64,000 bases of DNA, from NCBI GenBank assembly GCA_009908385.1, contig JAAAPE010000064.1, forward strand, positions 1 to 64,000, given 5' to 3'. Shown here piece after piece: positions 11,059 to 32,668 of the stretch (position 1 is the first letter of the stretch; each line of letters starts with the position of its first letter). Position numbers and translations under genes: made by a program. A model generated the notes under the pieces. The model searched no databases, was not told the origin of the DNA, and saw only the letters and a list, made by a program, of their open reading frames with translations. This DNA comes from Gammaproteobacteria bacterium. GTDB taxonomy: Bacteria; Pseudomonadota; Gammaproteobacteria; Xanthomonadales; Wenzhouxiangellaceae.

Positions 11059-13383
11059 TCAGCGGCGGGCCTTGGCGAAGGCTTCGGCCAGCGCGCCGCC
11101 CGGCGCCTCGCTCCGGCCCCGCTTCTGTTTCTTCTTGCGCTGGCCCCGAGGCTCGGACGGCTTTTCACGGCGGCCGGAAGAGGACTGATCGGCATCCGGC
11201 AGCGGATCGTCCAGCCGGAGGCTCAGTGCGATGCGCTTGCGGTCGAGATCGACGTTCATCACCTTGACCTTCACGACCTCGCCGGCCTTGACCACCGTGC
11301 GCGGGTCCTTGACGAACTTGTCGCTCATGGCGCTGATGTGGACCAGACCGTCCTGGTGCACGCCCAGGTCCACGAAGGCTCCGAATGCGGCCACGTTGCT
11401 GACCGTGCCCTCCAGGATCATGCCGGGTCGCAGGTCCTTGATGGTTTCCACGCCTTCGGCGAATTTCGCGGTCCGGAACTCCGGACGCGGATCGCGACCC
11501 GGCTTTTCCAGCTCCTGGAGGATGTCCCGGACGGTCGGCAGGCCGAAGCGCTCGTCGGTGAAGCGACTGGCGTCGAGCGAGCGCAGGGTCTTCGCGTCGC
11601 CGATGAGCGCGGTGACCGGCCGGGCCAGGTCGTCGAGGATGCGTTTGACCACGGGGTAGGCTTCGGGATGGACGGCCGAGGCGTCCAGCGGGTCGTCGCC
11701 GTCGGCGATGCGCAGGAAGCCGGCGGCCTGCTCGAAGGTCTTGGCGCCCACGCGCGGCACCTTCAGCAGGTCCTTGCGTCGCCGGAAGGGTCCGTTGTCG
11801 TCGCGGTGGGCGACGATGTTGTCGGCGACCGTCGCGTTGAGCCCGGCCACGCGGGACAGCAGGGCGCTGGAGGCGGTATCGACGTGCACGCCCACGGCAT
11901 TGACGCAGTCCTCGACCCGAGCGTCGAGCGCCCGGGCCAGCTTGTACTGGTCGACGTCGTGCTGGTACTGGCCGACACCGATCGCCCTGGGCTCGATCTT
12001 GACCAGTTCCGCCAGGGGGTCCTGCAGGCGTCGTGCGATCGAGACTGCGCCGCGCAAGCTGACGTCCAGGTTGGGGAATTCCTTCGCCGCCAGCTCCGGG
12101 GCGGAGTAGACGGAGGCGCCGGCCTCCGAGACCACCAGTTTCTGGATGCCGCGCAGGCCCAGCTGCTTCAGCGCACGGGTCACGAACTGGTCGATTTCCC
12201 GCGACGCCGTGCCGTTGCCGATCGCGATCAGTTCGACCTCGTGCTTGCGGCACAGCGCGCCCAGGGTGTCGAGGGCGTCTTCGACGCGTTTCTGCGGCGG
12301 GAGCGGATAGATCGTGGCGGTGTCGAGGAGCTGTCCCGTGGGATCGATGACGACCAGCTTGGTGCCGGTCCGAAGCCCCGGGTCCAGGCCCATGACCGTC
12401 CGTGCGCCCGCCGGTGCCGCCAGCAGCAGGTCGCCCAGGTTGTCGCCGAAGATGCGGATGGCCTCGGCCTCGGCGCGCTCGCGGGCGCCGACCATCAGTT
12501 CCACCTGCAGGTTCATCTGCACGCGGGCTTTCCAGGCCGGGCGTGCGCCCATCATCAGCCAGGCGTCGGCCGGCCGGTTCCGATCCTGGATACCCAGGTG
12601 GCCCGCCACGCGCGCGATGGCATGATCGTGGCCCGATTCGGGATCCTCGCCCGGCTCGAGCTCCATGCTCAGGATGCCTTCGTTGCGGCCCCGCAGCATC
12701 GCCAGCACGCGGTGCGACGGCGCCTTCGCCAGCGGTTCCGAGTATGCGAAATAGTCGCGGTACTTGGCCCCCTCGTGTTCCTTGCCGTCGATCACGCGCG
12801 AGACCAGGCGGGCGCAGCCGGCATACCAGTCGCGCAGCTCGCCGAGCAGGTCGGCGTGCTCGCCGGCACGCTCGATCAGGATCTGACGGGCGCCGTCCAG
12901 CGCCGCGTCGACGTCTTCGATCTTGTGCCCGGCGTTCAGATAAGCGGCCGCGACCGTCTGCGGGTCCTGCGCGGGATCGGCCAGCAGGTCGTCGAGCAGC
13001 GGCTCCAGTCCGGCCTCGCGCGCGATCTGGGCACGCGTGCGGCGTCTGGGCTTGTAGGGCAGGTAGAGGTCTTCCAGGCGCGCCTTGGTGTCGGCGGCCT
13101 CGATGGCCTCCTTCAGTTCGCCGGTGAGCTTGCCCTGCTCGTCGATGGTGGCCAGCACCGTGGCGCGGCGATCCTCGAGCTCGCGCAGATAGGCCAGCCG
13201 CGTTTCCAGATTGCGTAGCTGGGTGTCGTCCAGCCCGCCGGTGGCTTCCTTGCGGTAGCGGGCGACGAACGGCACGGTGGCGCCTTCGTCGAGCAGCTTG
13301 ACGGCAGCGGAAACCTGCCCGGCGCGGGCACCGATTTCCTCGGCGATGCGAAGCGCGATGCGCTCGGCTGTGGCGTGTTTCAT
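11059..13383 (-). CDS. tex: Transcription accessory protein Tex
   Basis: '[26 protein letters not shown]', '[16 protein letters not shown]', C-terminal S1 domain '[26 protein letters not shown]'. Confidence 0.97.
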
Positions 13384-27719: not shown

Positions 27720-28478
27720 ATGAACCCTGTGAAATCCCGTCGACTGCTGGTCGGTCTCCTCGTCGCCCTCTCCCTGGCGCTGGTCGGTTGCGAACTCGAC
27801 CGGCCGCCCCGGGCCGACACATCGGCCGAGGAGGCGTCGGTGCTGCGCGTGCACGACGTCTCGGACCTCCAGGTGGAAGGGCTCGAGGGCAAGCTCAACG
27901 AGCTGCTCTCGCGCGAGGACCTGCCGCTTCGCGGGCGGGTGGAGCTGCTCGACGACGGCCGCCTGGCGGTCAACGCCTCGCGCCACCTGCAGGACGAAAT
28001 CGCCGGCATGATCGAGCAGCTGCGCGAGTCGGTGCCTGCCGATATCGTCGAGCGCCCGTTCCGCATCGAGTTCTGGTTCCTGCGCCTGGCGCCGGGCGAG
28101 TCGAGCGGCGACCTGCCGGCCTACCTGGCCGACGAGCTTGCGCCCCTGGTGGCGCAGTACGAGGACTACGGCCTGTCGATCCAGGACTACCTCGAGAGCC
28201 ACCATTCCAGCGCTTCCTCGATGAGGAGCATTTACTCCGGAAGCGGAGCCCTGGTCCGTTTCAGGCGCGTCGTGCCCACCGAGCAGGGTATCTTGCTGAA
28301 CGCAAGCACCCAGTCGGATTCAGCGGCGGGTCGCCGTTCGATCATCTACGAAATCGATCACGTCCTGCAGCCGGGAAAATCGCTCGTGCTGGGACGTGCT
28401 CACGACGGCGGCGACGCCGGCAAGGCGTCCTACCAGCTCCTGGTCGCGCGGGCCGAATGGACCGACGAAGCCGACTGA
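27720..28478 (+). CDS. Hypothetical lipoprotein, possible secretin-N-like fold
   Basis: Lipobox 'LALVGCELD'; 'RVHDVSDLQVEGLEGKLNELL', 'RPFRIEFWFLRL'. Confidence 0.6.
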   Translation: MNPVKSRRLLVGLLVALSLALVGCELDRPPRADTSAEEASVLRVHDVSDLQVEGLEGKLNELLSREDLPLRGRVELLDDGRLAVNASRHLQDEIAGMIEQLRESVPADIVERPFRIEFWFLRLAPGESSGDLPAYLADELAPLVAQYEDYGLSIQDYLESHHSSASSMRSIYSGSGALVRFRRVVPTEQGILLNASTQSDSAAGRRSIIYEIDHVLQPGKSLVLGRAHDGGDAGKASYQLLVARAEWTDEAD

Positions 28479-28487
28479 GCCGGCCGG

Positions 28488-28979
28488 ATGCTGTCCAGAC
28501 CTGCCCTGGAGGCGGCCTACCTGCGGCTGGAGAAACCGCTCTACAACTATCTCTATCGCTGGTTCTGGGACCCGGAAACCTGCCGGGATCTCATACACGA
28601 CGCCTTCGAGCGCATCTGGCGCAAGCGCGAGCGCGTCGACGAAGCGGGCGTCGAGGCGCTCGCCTGGACGGTCGTGATCAACCTGGCGCGCAACCACCAC
28701 CGGCGCGCGCGGCTGGTCGAGTGGATCGGTCTGCCCCTGGGGCTGAGCGGGGGACGCGGGCCCGACGCCGAGGCCGAGCTCGGCGAGCGCGATCGGCGCC
28801 TGCGCGACGCCCTCGAGGCGCTCCCGGCATCGGCGCGCGAGATCCTGCTGCTCGATATCTTCGCCGGTGTGCCGCGGCAGCGCCTGGCCGGCATGCTGGG
28901 CATCCCGGCCGGCACCCTGGCCTCGCGCAAGCACGCGGCGGTGAATCGACTCAAGGAATTGCTCGACGATGAAGATTGA
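28488..28979 (+). CDS. ECF-type RNA polymerase sigma factor
   Basis: 'YRWFWDPETCRDLIHDAFERIWRKR' region 2; 'LEALPASAREILLLDIFAGVPRQRLAGMLGIPAGTLASRKHAAVNRLKELL' region 4. Confidence 0.88.
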   Translation: MLSRPALEAAYLRLEKPLYNYLYRWFWDPETCRDLIHDAFERIWRKRERVDEAGVEALAWTVVINLARNHHRRARLVEWIGLPLGLSGGRGPDAEAELGERDRRLRDALEALPASAREILLLDIFAGVPRQRLAGMLGIPAGTLASRKHAAVNRLKELLDDED

Positions 28980-29313
28980 ACGCTACTTTCCCGAGATCGA
29001 CCCGCCCCCGGGCGGACTGCAGCGCCTGCAGGTGCGCATCGACCGGCGCGAGGCGAGGCGCGCACGAGCGCCGCTGCGGGCTACGGCAGCCCTGGTGATG
29101 CTCGCCGCTCTGGCCGCGGCGCCCTGGCTCTACGACCTGGCCAGGACACAGGGCCAGGCGGCCTCGCAGCTCGACGAGCTTCGACGCACCCTCGCCGAGC
29201 ACCGCCTGGACGAGCTGTCGATCGACGGCCGGCGGCCGCGGGCCGTTGCGCTGGGCTCGGATCGCCTCGAGGTCTTCCTGGTGGCCGGGGATCCCGGGCC
29301 GGACGGCTCCTGA
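28969..29313 (+). CDS. Single-pass membrane protein, candidate anti-sigma-like partner
   Basis: Overlaps the sigma gene end; TM 'TAALVMLAALAAAPWLYDLA'. Confidence 0.55.
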   Translation: MKIERYFPEIDPPPGGLQRLQVRIDRREARRARAPLRATAALVMLAALAAAPWLYDLARTQGQAASQLDELRRTLAEHRLDELSIDGRRPRAVALGSDRLEVFLVAGDPGPDGS

Positions 29314-29315
29314 GC

Positions 29316-31640
29316 TCAGCCTCTGGCCGCCGCTCTGGCCTTGGCCAGCACCGAATCCTCGCTGAATCCGCCGTCCTTCCAGCTGCCGGCGGGCTTGCCG
29401 GTGAGCAGCTCCAGAGTTTCGTGAATGCTCGCCGCGGGGTAGACGCGGAACTGATCGTTGGTGCACGCCCTCACGACGTTCTTGTCGAGCATGAGACGGT
29501 CGCGGGAGGCGGCGGGAATGATGACGCCCTGCTGCCCGTTGAGGCCGGCCCCGCTGCAGGCCTGGAAAAAACCCTCGACACGCTCGTTGACCTGCTCGAC
29601 GTGACCGATCTGGCCGCGTGCGTCGATGCTGCCGATGACCGCGAAATCCTGCCGAACCGACAGGCCGGCCAGGGCGCACAGCAGACCGCTGACCTGTCCC
29701 AGCAGTGAGGCGGCGGCGTCCTCGGCGTCCAGAGCCGGGTCGATGGTGAGCGCGGCGTGCAGCGCGGGCATCGTGTCGAGCTGGAGCAGCTCGGCGATGA
29801 CGGGCCAGAGAAACTGACGGGAAGGCAGCGCTTCGCTGCCGCTCTCGAGCGTCAGCGAAGCCGCCGGCGCGTGCGCCAGGGCGACGCTCAGACGTGCGGG
29901 CAGGCCGAACACCTCGTCGGCGATGCGCATGCGCGTAACGATGTTGACCTGCGAAGCAGTGCGGCCGCGCAGGCGAATGGCGCCGTTATCGACTTCGCGC
30001 CGCATCCTGCTCAGCCAGGGCAAGCCGGCACGACGCCGGATGCGCTCGAAGGCCAGCTCGACGTGCTCGCGGCCGACTTCGCGCTCCTCGTCTTCCTCGG
30101 CGAGGAATGCTGCCTCGCGCGTGATCTCGCTGAGCCGCCCGATTTCCGTCGTCAGTCTTTCAGGCTGGTCGGTCAGGCGGCTGCTGATCTCGACCAGCGC
30201 CGCAAGCGCCGAGCGGGTCAGCGGCGCGAGGCCTTCCTGCTGGACGACCGCCGAAATGAAACGGCAGCTGTAGTCGATGCCTTCGCGATCACGCGCGATG
30301 GAGGTGTCGAGGTCTGCCAGCAATCGAAATCGCCGGGAAAACTCGCTACTGAGTGATTCGAGCCGCCGGTAGGCGTGTTCGTCACCGACCAGGATGACGC
30401 CCACGTCGACCGGCACGGCCTCGGGACGCAGTGACTGGGCCGCCTGGCTCCAGTCGGATGTCGGCGCCGTGATGGCGACCTCGCCGGTGCGCAGGATGCG
30501 CAGCAGCTGGCGGAAAACATCGGGTTCGCTGGCCAGGTCTTCGGCGTCGAGCACCAGGAAACCGCCGTCGGCCTGGATCAGGGTGCCGGAACGGATGCCC
30601 AGGAAGGAGGCGACCGCGCGTTGTCCGCTGCGCCAGGCCGGGTCGACGGTGCCGAACAGGCTGGCGGCGGAGACGGCGTTGGTCGTCACGATCGGGGCGC
30701 CTTCCTCGGAGCCGCCCATGTTGAGCACGTTGACGCCGTACAGAACCGTCGGGTCGGCGAGCTGGCTGGTCTCGTGGCCGATCCGTTTTTCCAGCACGTC
30801 GTCGATGGTCTCGCGCAGGTAGGTGTCGATGCCCGGCGCCTTGAAGCGCTGCGCGACCTCGGCGGTCATTTCACCCAGGATGCGCGCCGTCTCCGTGACG
30901 TCGATCTGCTCGATGTGCTTCTGGGCCTGCTGCCACTTCTGCCGGATCTGGCGCGCGACTTTGTGGAGTTCGTCTTCGTAGGAGCGGATCCGCTGCTCGA
31001 TCTGTTTGCGATCTTCCTCGGTCGCCTGCTTGCGAGCGACCATGTTGCGGAACTCCTCCTGCGACACGGGCTTGCCCATGATCTTGACGGCGACCTGCAG
31101 GCGCGCGTTCGGCCCGGCCTGGCTCCGGATCAGGGCCAGGCCTTCCTCATCGAGCTTCTTTTCCAGCGGACGCAGGAGTACCCGCACGTCTCGCTCGGCG
31201 GCTTCGCGCCTGGCTTCGCGGCGGCCGCGAATGGGATCGTTGGCCAGGATTTCCGGCAGTCGCTCGCGGATGAACAGGGCGATGCGGTGCATCTGCTTCT
31301 GGAACGGCCGGCCCTCACCCCGCGGCAGGAGGATCAGCCGCGGCCGGTCTGGATTGGAAAAATTGTGAACGAAGCAGAAGTCCCTGGACTGCCTGGCCTG
31401 CGGTCGTATGGAACTGAACATGCTGTCGACCAGGCGGCGCCGACCGCTGCCCCGCGGGCCGCGCAGGAACACATGCTGGTTGTGACCCGGGCTGGCGATG
31501 CCGTAGTGCAGCGCTTCGGCGGCCGCGTCCTGCCCGAGCGTGCCGTCGAGCACGGGAATGTCGCGCGTGGAATCGCCGGGAATGGCCTCGAGTTCGGCCT
31601 GCCAGCGCAGCTTTTCGGATGGAATCGCGTGGCGCGCCAT
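29316..31640 (-). CDS. Lon-related AAA+ protein (LonB/YcbZ-like), predicted protease-inactive
   Basis: 'GQDAAAEALHYGIASPGHNQHVFLRGPRGSGRRRLV', 'GGFLVLDAEDL', C-terminal S16-like 'VRQDFAVIGSIDARGQIGHVEQVNERVEGFFQACSGAGLNGQQGVIIPAA..LELLTG'. Confidence 0.88.
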   Translation of the reverse strand: MARHAIPSEKLRWQAELEAIPGDSTRDIPVLDGTLGQDAAAEALHYGIASPGHNQHVFLRGPRGSGRRRLVDSMFSSIRPQARQSRDFCFVHNFSNPDRPRLILLPRGEGRPFQKQMHRIALFIRERLPEILANDPIRGRREARREAAERDVRVLLRPLEKKLDEEGLALIRSQAGPNARLQVAVKIMGKPVSQEEFRNMVARKQATEEDRKQIEQRIRSYEDELHKVARQIRQKWQQAQKHIEQIDVTETARILGEMTAEVAQRFKAPGIDTYLRETIDDVLEKRIGHETSQLADPTVLYGVNVLNMGGSEEGAPIVTTNAVSAASLFGTVDPAWRSGQRAVASFLGIRSGTLIQADGGFLVLDAEDLASEPDVFRQLLRILRTGEVAITAPTSDWSQAAQSLRPEAVPVDVGVILVGDEHAYRRLESLSSEFSRRFRLLADLDTSIARDREGIDYSCRFISAVVQQEGLAPLTRSALAALVEISSRLTDQPERLTTEIGRLSEITREAAFLAEEDEEREVGREHVELAFERIRRRAGLPWLSRMRREVDNGAIRLRGRTASQVNIVTRMRIADEVFGLPARLSVALAHAPAASLTLESGSEALPSRQFLWPVIAELLQLDTMPALHAALTIDPALDAEDAAASLLGQVSGLLCALAGLSVRQDFAVIGSIDARGQIGHVEQVNERVEGFFQACSGAGLNGQQGVIIPAASRDRLMLDKNVVRACTNDQFRVYPAASIHETLELLTGKPAGSWKDGGFSEDSVLAKARAAARG

Positions 31641-31711: not shown

Positions 31712-32668
31712 CTACACCTGCCTGTTTGGAGGCGAATCGTCGGCGCGGGCCAGCGACTCGGCAAAGCTGATCCAGGATTCCGCCACGGTCCGCGGTCGTT
31801 CGATCATGGGCAGGTGACCTGTGTCGGGCAGGAGCAGCTTGCGTGCCGAAGGCATGCGCTCGGCCAGGATGTCGAGGCCCTCCGGATGCAATACCTGGTC
31901 GGCCTGACCCCAAACGATCAGCGCCGGAACCGCCAGGCCCTCGGCCAGTTGCTCGAGCGGCGTGGAACGGAACCGGATGTCGTCGAAAATAGCCTGCGCG
32001 CGGGAGGCGTTGCGCCCCGCGCGGTCGGCCAGCTCGCGCGCCAGCGGGCCGGGCAGCCAGGGCGGGCGGACAAAGCAGTAGTCCATCAGGCGGACGAAGT
32101 CGCTGCGGTCGCGTACGACCAGCGCGTTGTGGCCGCCCTGGTCGACGATCTCGAACAGCGGAGAGAGGGCCGCGGTTTGCAGCCCGCCCGGGTCGAGCAG
32201 CCACAGGGCACGAACCCGCCCGGGCGCCAGGCGGGCCAGAGCGCAGGCGACATAGCCGCCCATGGAGCTTCCGCCGAGATAGAAGCGATCGATGCCCAAC
32301 TCGTCTAGCAGGTCGAGCACGCGCCGCGCCTGAGATTCCACGTCGAACTCGAGCTCCGAATCGAATCTGGTCTGGCCGAAGCCCGGGAGGTCGGGCGCGA
32401 TCACGCGAAAGTGCTTGCCCAGCGCCCGTGAAACCCGGGCGAAATGGTAGGCGTCGCCATTGAAACCGTGCAGCAGGACCAGCGGTTCGCCGTGACCGCC
32501 TTCCAGGAGATGCCATTCGATCCCGTCGTGTTCGAAGCGTCTGGTGCGCAGCCCCCCGCGACGTCGTTCGGCGGCCATGAAAAGCCGGGCCAGGGGGGCT
32601 GGCCAGGCGAGCCAGAAGAGGGCGCATGCCGCGAGGATTACCAGCAGGGCGATCAGCCAGGTCGTCAT
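31712..32668 (-). CDS. Alpha/beta hydrolase with N-terminal TM
   Basis: 'LVLLHGFNGDAYHFARVSRAL', 'LGGSSMGGYVACALA', 'DTGHLPMIERP'. Confidence 0.88.
   Translation of the reverse strand: MTTWLIALLVILAACALFWLAWPAPLARLFMAAERRRGGLRTRRFEHDGIEWHLLEGGHGEPLVLLHGFNGDAYHFARVSRALGKHFRVIAPDLPGFGQTRFDSELEFDVESQARRVLDLLDELGIDRFYLGGSSMGGYVACALARLAPGRVRALWLLDPGGLQTAALSPLFEIVDQGGHNALVVRDRSDFVRLMDYCFVRPPWLPGPLARELADRAGRNASRAQAIFDDIRFRSTPLEQLAEGLAVPALIVWGQADQVLHPEGLDILAERMPSARKLLLPDTGHLPMIERPRTVAESWISFAESLARADDSPPNRQV

Follow-up and report, generated by a model that had tools for sequence, protein, structure and literature searches.

The closest described systems are the LonC proteases, of which MtaLonC and TTC1975 have been characterised; neither has ATPase activity, MtaLonC still binds nucleotide, and the action of LonC on unfolded proteins needs no ATP (PMC3391209). 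MEROPS also lists non-peptidase Lon homologues (PMC9569914), and those that are understood mechanistically (RadA, ComM and BrxL) retain a working ATPase. Here we describe a Lon-like protein from which both activities are apparently gone, yet which is still selected.

The protein (774 residues) is encoded on the reverse strand of the window, by which we mean the whole stretch of 64,000 nucleotides that was analysed. It is the LonC-type (MEROPS S16.007-like) product of a Wenzhouxiangella-group genome; the closest named relatives of the host are Wenzhouxiangella records, some of them from soda-lake or other sediment, and the genome also encodes a LonA and a second LonC-like protein whose active site is intact (the paralogue L002, 28% identity). 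Pfam matches above cut-off were AAA_32, LonB_AAA-LID and LonC_helical, and the LonC helical, LonB-like AAA and LID domains lie in the order that characterises the LonC subfamily. Lon_C (PF05362), a family that protease-intact relatives do match, gave no hit in this reading frame even at E = 1. Judged by its active-site residues, the protein is a non-peptidase homologue of LonC and not a LonC peptidase. The reading frame, coordinates, strand and residues quoted in the earlier note were all recovered, and the features are as follows.

29316..31640, reverse strand: dyad-lost LonC-type protein of 774 residues, supported by Pfam domains and an AlphaFold2 model
31440..31460, reverse strand: degenerate Walker A motif GPRGSGR, with R67 (CGG) at the Lys position
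30741..31382, reverse strand: helical or N domain (residues 87-300), the most conserved part within the clade, with an acidic-to-basic switch
30291..30740, reverse strand: AAA-like core (residues 301-450), with a Walker B-like GGFLVLDAED lacking the catalytic Glu
30006..30290, reverse strand: LID domain (residues 451-545), Pfam LonB_AAA-LID
29406..30005, reverse strand: S16-like protease domain (residues 546-745), predicted fold intact and constraint relaxed
29709..29711, reverse strand: Ala644 at the catalytic Ser position, codon GCC
29706-29708, reverse strand: S645, codon TCA, next to the catalytic Ser position
29634..29636, reverse strand: Ile669 at the active-site Thr position
29580..29582, reverse strand: Arg687 at the catalytic Lys position, codon CGT
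31712..32668, reverse strand: alpha/beta hydrolase, a conserved neighbour, whose Ser/Asp/His motifs are intact and which has a hydrophobic segment at its N terminus

The earlier note had placed Ala at the catalytic Ser and Arg (CGT) at the catalytic Lys in an ungapped register, and two further alignments agree with it. Alignment to the solved MtaLonC pairs S582 with A644 and K625 with R687, and profile-profile comparison with L019, the closest relative that is intact, gives the same register (100% probability) with no gap between 644 and 687; A644 and R687 are also equally spaced from common anchors (e.g., Q664, N685 and E689). A single-sequence phmmer alignment to MtaLonC puts Val opposite the catalytic Ser, which is still not Ser. 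The neighbouring Ser that had been described as one residue off register is S645, which adjoins A644. The GDS motif has become AAA, with the active-site Asp also gone, and the active-site Thr of the AVTG motif is replaced by Ile669. In place of the Ser-Lys catalytic dyad of LonC, the aligned sequence has A644 and R687, and we infer that proteolysis by the 774-residue protein is absent.

The survey of relatives that the earlier note had proposed covered close relatives, all 43 genomes of the family and 250 genomes drawn evenly from the order, and further copies were added; Wenzhouxiangella sediminis is among the carriers of the gene (L033). All 24 orthologues, from three Wenzhouxiangellaceae genera (g1, g6 and g7), lack the catalytic Lys and Thr; the Lys column holds Arg in 21 of them and Gln, Cys or Ser in one each. 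The catalytic Ser is missing from most of these copies and present in a few, standing exactly in the catalytic column in four close sisters (L003-L005 and L007), so that loss of the Ser is not uniform. The complete Asp-Ser-Thr-Lys set is kept in 33 of 33 intact A-lineage copies examined, including L019 from the same family, and in 13 of 13 paralogues examined. When the active-site columns are left out, a short tree search, with L027 as a long branch, unites the dyad-lost copies in a single clade (SH-aLRT 99) that requires one change. These sequences show that a common ancestor within the Wenzhouxiangellaceae lost the dyad and the helper Thr in a single event, so that the cutting residues are missing throughout a family of salt-loving bacteria. 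A sequencing error or single-genome oddity is ruled out by the 23 further orthologues. A protease that is still active through other residues could draw on S645 beside the site and on the Ser in the catalytic column of the four sisters, but we give this very little credence: Lys and Thr are gone throughout, the protease domain is the fastest-evolving part of the protein and holds no new conserved Ser, Thr or Cys, and its invariant C695 is not new, being present in intact relatives as well.

The gene is retained under purifying selection. Whole-gene Nei-Gojobori dN/dS was 0.06-0.25 in most close pairs and 0.06-0.22 in those within the genus, where the helical domain gave 0.00-0.10; these values are rough, since some pairs are almost saturated at synonymous sites. 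Pairs within genus g6 gave 0.17 in one case and 0.46 in another (L029/L055); in the latter the protease domain reached about 0.88, near no constraint, and the adjoining hydrolase is well conserved. There are no internal stops, and the reading frame is intact in all copies searched.

Constraint is distributed very differently along the dyad-lost and intact proteins. Mean pairwise identity among dyad-lost members of the genus is 66% in residues 87-300 and 39% in the protease domain, whereas in intact relatives it is 36% in residues 87-300 (the least conserved part) and 73% in the protease domain (the most conserved). To obtain rate ratios, branch lengths were fitted with the tree held fixed, and the dyad-lost protein and the paralogue were taken from one set of five genomes. 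Relative to this intact paralogue, the protease domain evolves 4.34 times as fast (bootstrap 3.6-5.7) and the helical domain 1.07 times as fast (bootstrap 0.82-1.26); the AAA and LID domains are also faster (about 2.4-2.5 times), so that the ring itself may be loosened. Relative to intact relatives, the ratios are 2.60 for the protease domain and 0.22 for residues 87-300. Of 93 sites that lost constraint, 61 fall within the protease domain. Residues 87-300 contain none of the 93 but hold 14 of the 20 newly fixed sites, including Arg at 111, 138, 140, 153, 172 and 253. The net charge of residues 87-300 is +4.0 in the genus, against -6.9 for intact relatives and -13.8 for the same-genus paralogue, and this last value means that no genome-wide bias accounts for the shift. 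Taken together, the comparisons show that the helical domain has replaced the protease domain as the conserved part and has become basic.

These data also bear on whether the gene is simply in decay and functionless. Where the Lon-like gene is missing, its flanking genes remain in place, so it has been cleanly lost, and since it is cleanly missing from some genomes it is not essential; at least two and up to four losses are counted on a mixed-gene tree with incomplete data. These clean absences and the relaxed protease domain are what decay would leave behind. The intact frames, low dN/dS, newly fixed sites and a helical domain as conserved as that of the active paralogue speak against it, and we regard decay as highly unlikely; a pseudogene was rejected on the low dN/dS and intact frames.

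An AlphaFold2 model computed from 20 sequences had a mean pLDDT of 88, and the protease domain for the most part reached roughly 90 or more. Its best PDB match was LonC 8k8v (TM 0.71/0.76), and its ten best matches were all LonC structures, so the predicted monomer keeps the LonC-type fold. The matches include S582A MtaLonC in complex with lysozyme (8k91) or a peptide substrate (7ev4), and S582A/D581A substrate-bound entries.

The ATPase motifs are degenerate, as is typical of the LonC subfamily. Walker A reads GPRGSGRR, with Arg at both the Lys position (Arg67) and the Ser/Thr position, and Walker B reads FLVLDAED, without the Glu needed for hydrolysis, an absence likewise described for MtaLonC (PMC3391209). 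Neither motif is canonical as in the ATP-dependent LonA and LonB, nor do these degenerate motifs amount to the working ATPase of a DNA-acting ring of the RadA, ComM or BrxL type. Both defects also occur in protease-intact relatives of the same lineage, and the aligned copies show that degeneration of the motifs predates the dyad loss. The earlier proposal thus divides: loss of Ser-Lys dyad proteolysis holds, as an ancient and clade-wide event, whereas persistence of the ATPase/unfoldase is not supported, since a persisting ATPase is unlikely given the degenerate Walker motifs, their likeness in intact relatives and the lack of ATPase activity in characterised LonC. We infer that ATP hydrolysis is absent, and it is more likely that the protein has neither protease nor ATPase activity; it may still bind nucleotide. 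Across the whole LonC A-lineage of this order, protease-intact members included (L020-L028 and L060-L070), the Walker A Lys has become Arg, and it is kept in the outgroup members L044-L049.

We favour a binding role with the partner left unspecified, to which the basic helical domain and the switch in constraint point; the former protein-cutting machine is now probably a binding protein instead of an enzyme. The more specific reading we put first, with confidence somewhat short of even, is that a LonC-type protein turned into a non-enzymatic binding ring with an anionic client, either unfolded protein or nucleic acid. The ATPase motifs degenerated first in the lineage, and the dyad and Thr were then lost once. 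The protein would still assemble as a LonC-type chambered ring, with the protease domain kept as scaffold, and the helical domain at the ring entrance would capture the anionic client without cutting or ATP-driven unfolding. An unfolded or exposed acidic polypeptide, held in a holdase or sequestering role, would be the most likely client, because LonC needs no ATP to act on unfolded substrates and structures exist of engineered Ser-to-Ala MtaLonC with substrate bound; nucleic acid would come second, in view of the fixed arginines and the precedents of RadA, ComM and BrxL. Positive charge does not discriminate between the two. A literature search for inactive Lon holdases returned none, and the main text of the proteomics paper on Wenzhouxiangella AB-CW3 makes no mention of Lon.

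A distinct proposal is a dedicated nucleic-acid-binding ring, in which DNA or RNA would be bound through the basic helical domain, with the dead Lon domain as a scaffold for assembly, as in RadA and ComM. The six fixed arginines and the swing to net positive charge fit it, as do the non-proteolytic Lon-like domains of the DNA-acting rings RadA and ComM (PMC11612176) and BrxL (PMC10164562). The ATPases of those proteins work, however, and that of the 774-residue protein probably does not; it carries no known nucleic-acid-binding domain and no PADLOC match, and its neighbours (the hydrolase, a glycosyltransferase and transporters) are not DNA-repair genes. We consider this proposal rather unlikely.

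The hydrolase gene lies 71 nt upstream of the Lon-like gene on the same strand, and it adjoins every dyad-lost locus whose flank reaches it. The adjacency is shared by L019 and nearly all relatives in family f8 and is absent in f5, f9 and f10; the hydrolase thus adjoins LonC genes in two bacterial families. This conserved same-strand arrangement, with the catalytic motifs of the hydrolase intact, would suit a regulatory or chaperone partner of the hydrolase, but such a role is improbable: the adjacency is older than the dyad loss and cannot explain it, and cross-genus identity is 57-60% for the hydrolase against 32-35% for the Lon-like protein. The hydrolase is present in 40 of the 43 family genomes, including genomes without the Lon-like gene, and its persistence there weakens the partnership as a reason for retention.

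PADLOC gave no defence-system match at the locus, and a defence system was set aside on that ground; a promoter scan found no site. An ECF-type sigma factor gene and, after it, a short ORF that overlaps it and may encode an anti-sigma factor lie tail to tail with the Lon-like gene (28488-29313, forward strand), a pair found elsewhere only in L032 among the loci compared. A lipoprotein-like ORF of 252 residues with no Pfam family (27720-28478, forward strand) is likewise present in L032. Farther away, an ordinary Tex-family transcription accessory protein is encoded at 11059-13383 on the reverse strand.

Other families offer examples of mixed proteolytic rings that include inactive subunits. 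With that precedent, and with an intact LonC paralogue and a LonA in the same genome, the dead protein could be a pseudo-subunit that mixes into the active paralogue (L002 type) and modulates it. The two are only 28% identical, and several nearly complete genomes (G027, a single contig, G063 and G034) have the dead protein and no paralogue hit, which disfavours an obligate partnership; we hold the pseudo-subunit to be very improbable.

Returning to the binding ring, its most pointed form, in which a doubly inactive LonC ring serves as a passive nucleic-acid or acidic-protein cage via its recharged entrance domain, is possible but on balance doubtful; if true, it would be a new use of Lon architecture. 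A shift from enzyme to binder is directly testable here, because the loss is single on the tree and two intact controls are at hand, a sister lineage and the paralogue that shares the cell.

Compared with known systems, the protein shares with RadA and ComM Lon-like domains and with the BrxL C-terminal domain a non-proteolytic Lon fold in a ring protein (the ring here being presumed); those proteins have working ATPases of their own, act on DNA and are not close homologues. It shares the domain set with paralogue L002, which differs in its intact GDS..K site and acidic helical domain. The intact A-lineage LonC proteins of the same order (L019, L020, L021 and others) are orthologues, 30-36% identical, with the same Walker A Arg and, in L019 and most f8 members, the same hydrolase neighbour, but they keep Asp-Ser-Thr-Lys, and in them conservation is highest in the protease domain and lowest in the helical domain. 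With LonC itself (MtaLonC/TTC1975, MEROPS S16.007) the protein has in common the domain order, the helical domain, the degenerate ATPase motifs and the predicted fold; it differs in having lost the Ser, Lys, Thr and GDS, and in its basic helical domain and relaxed protease domain.
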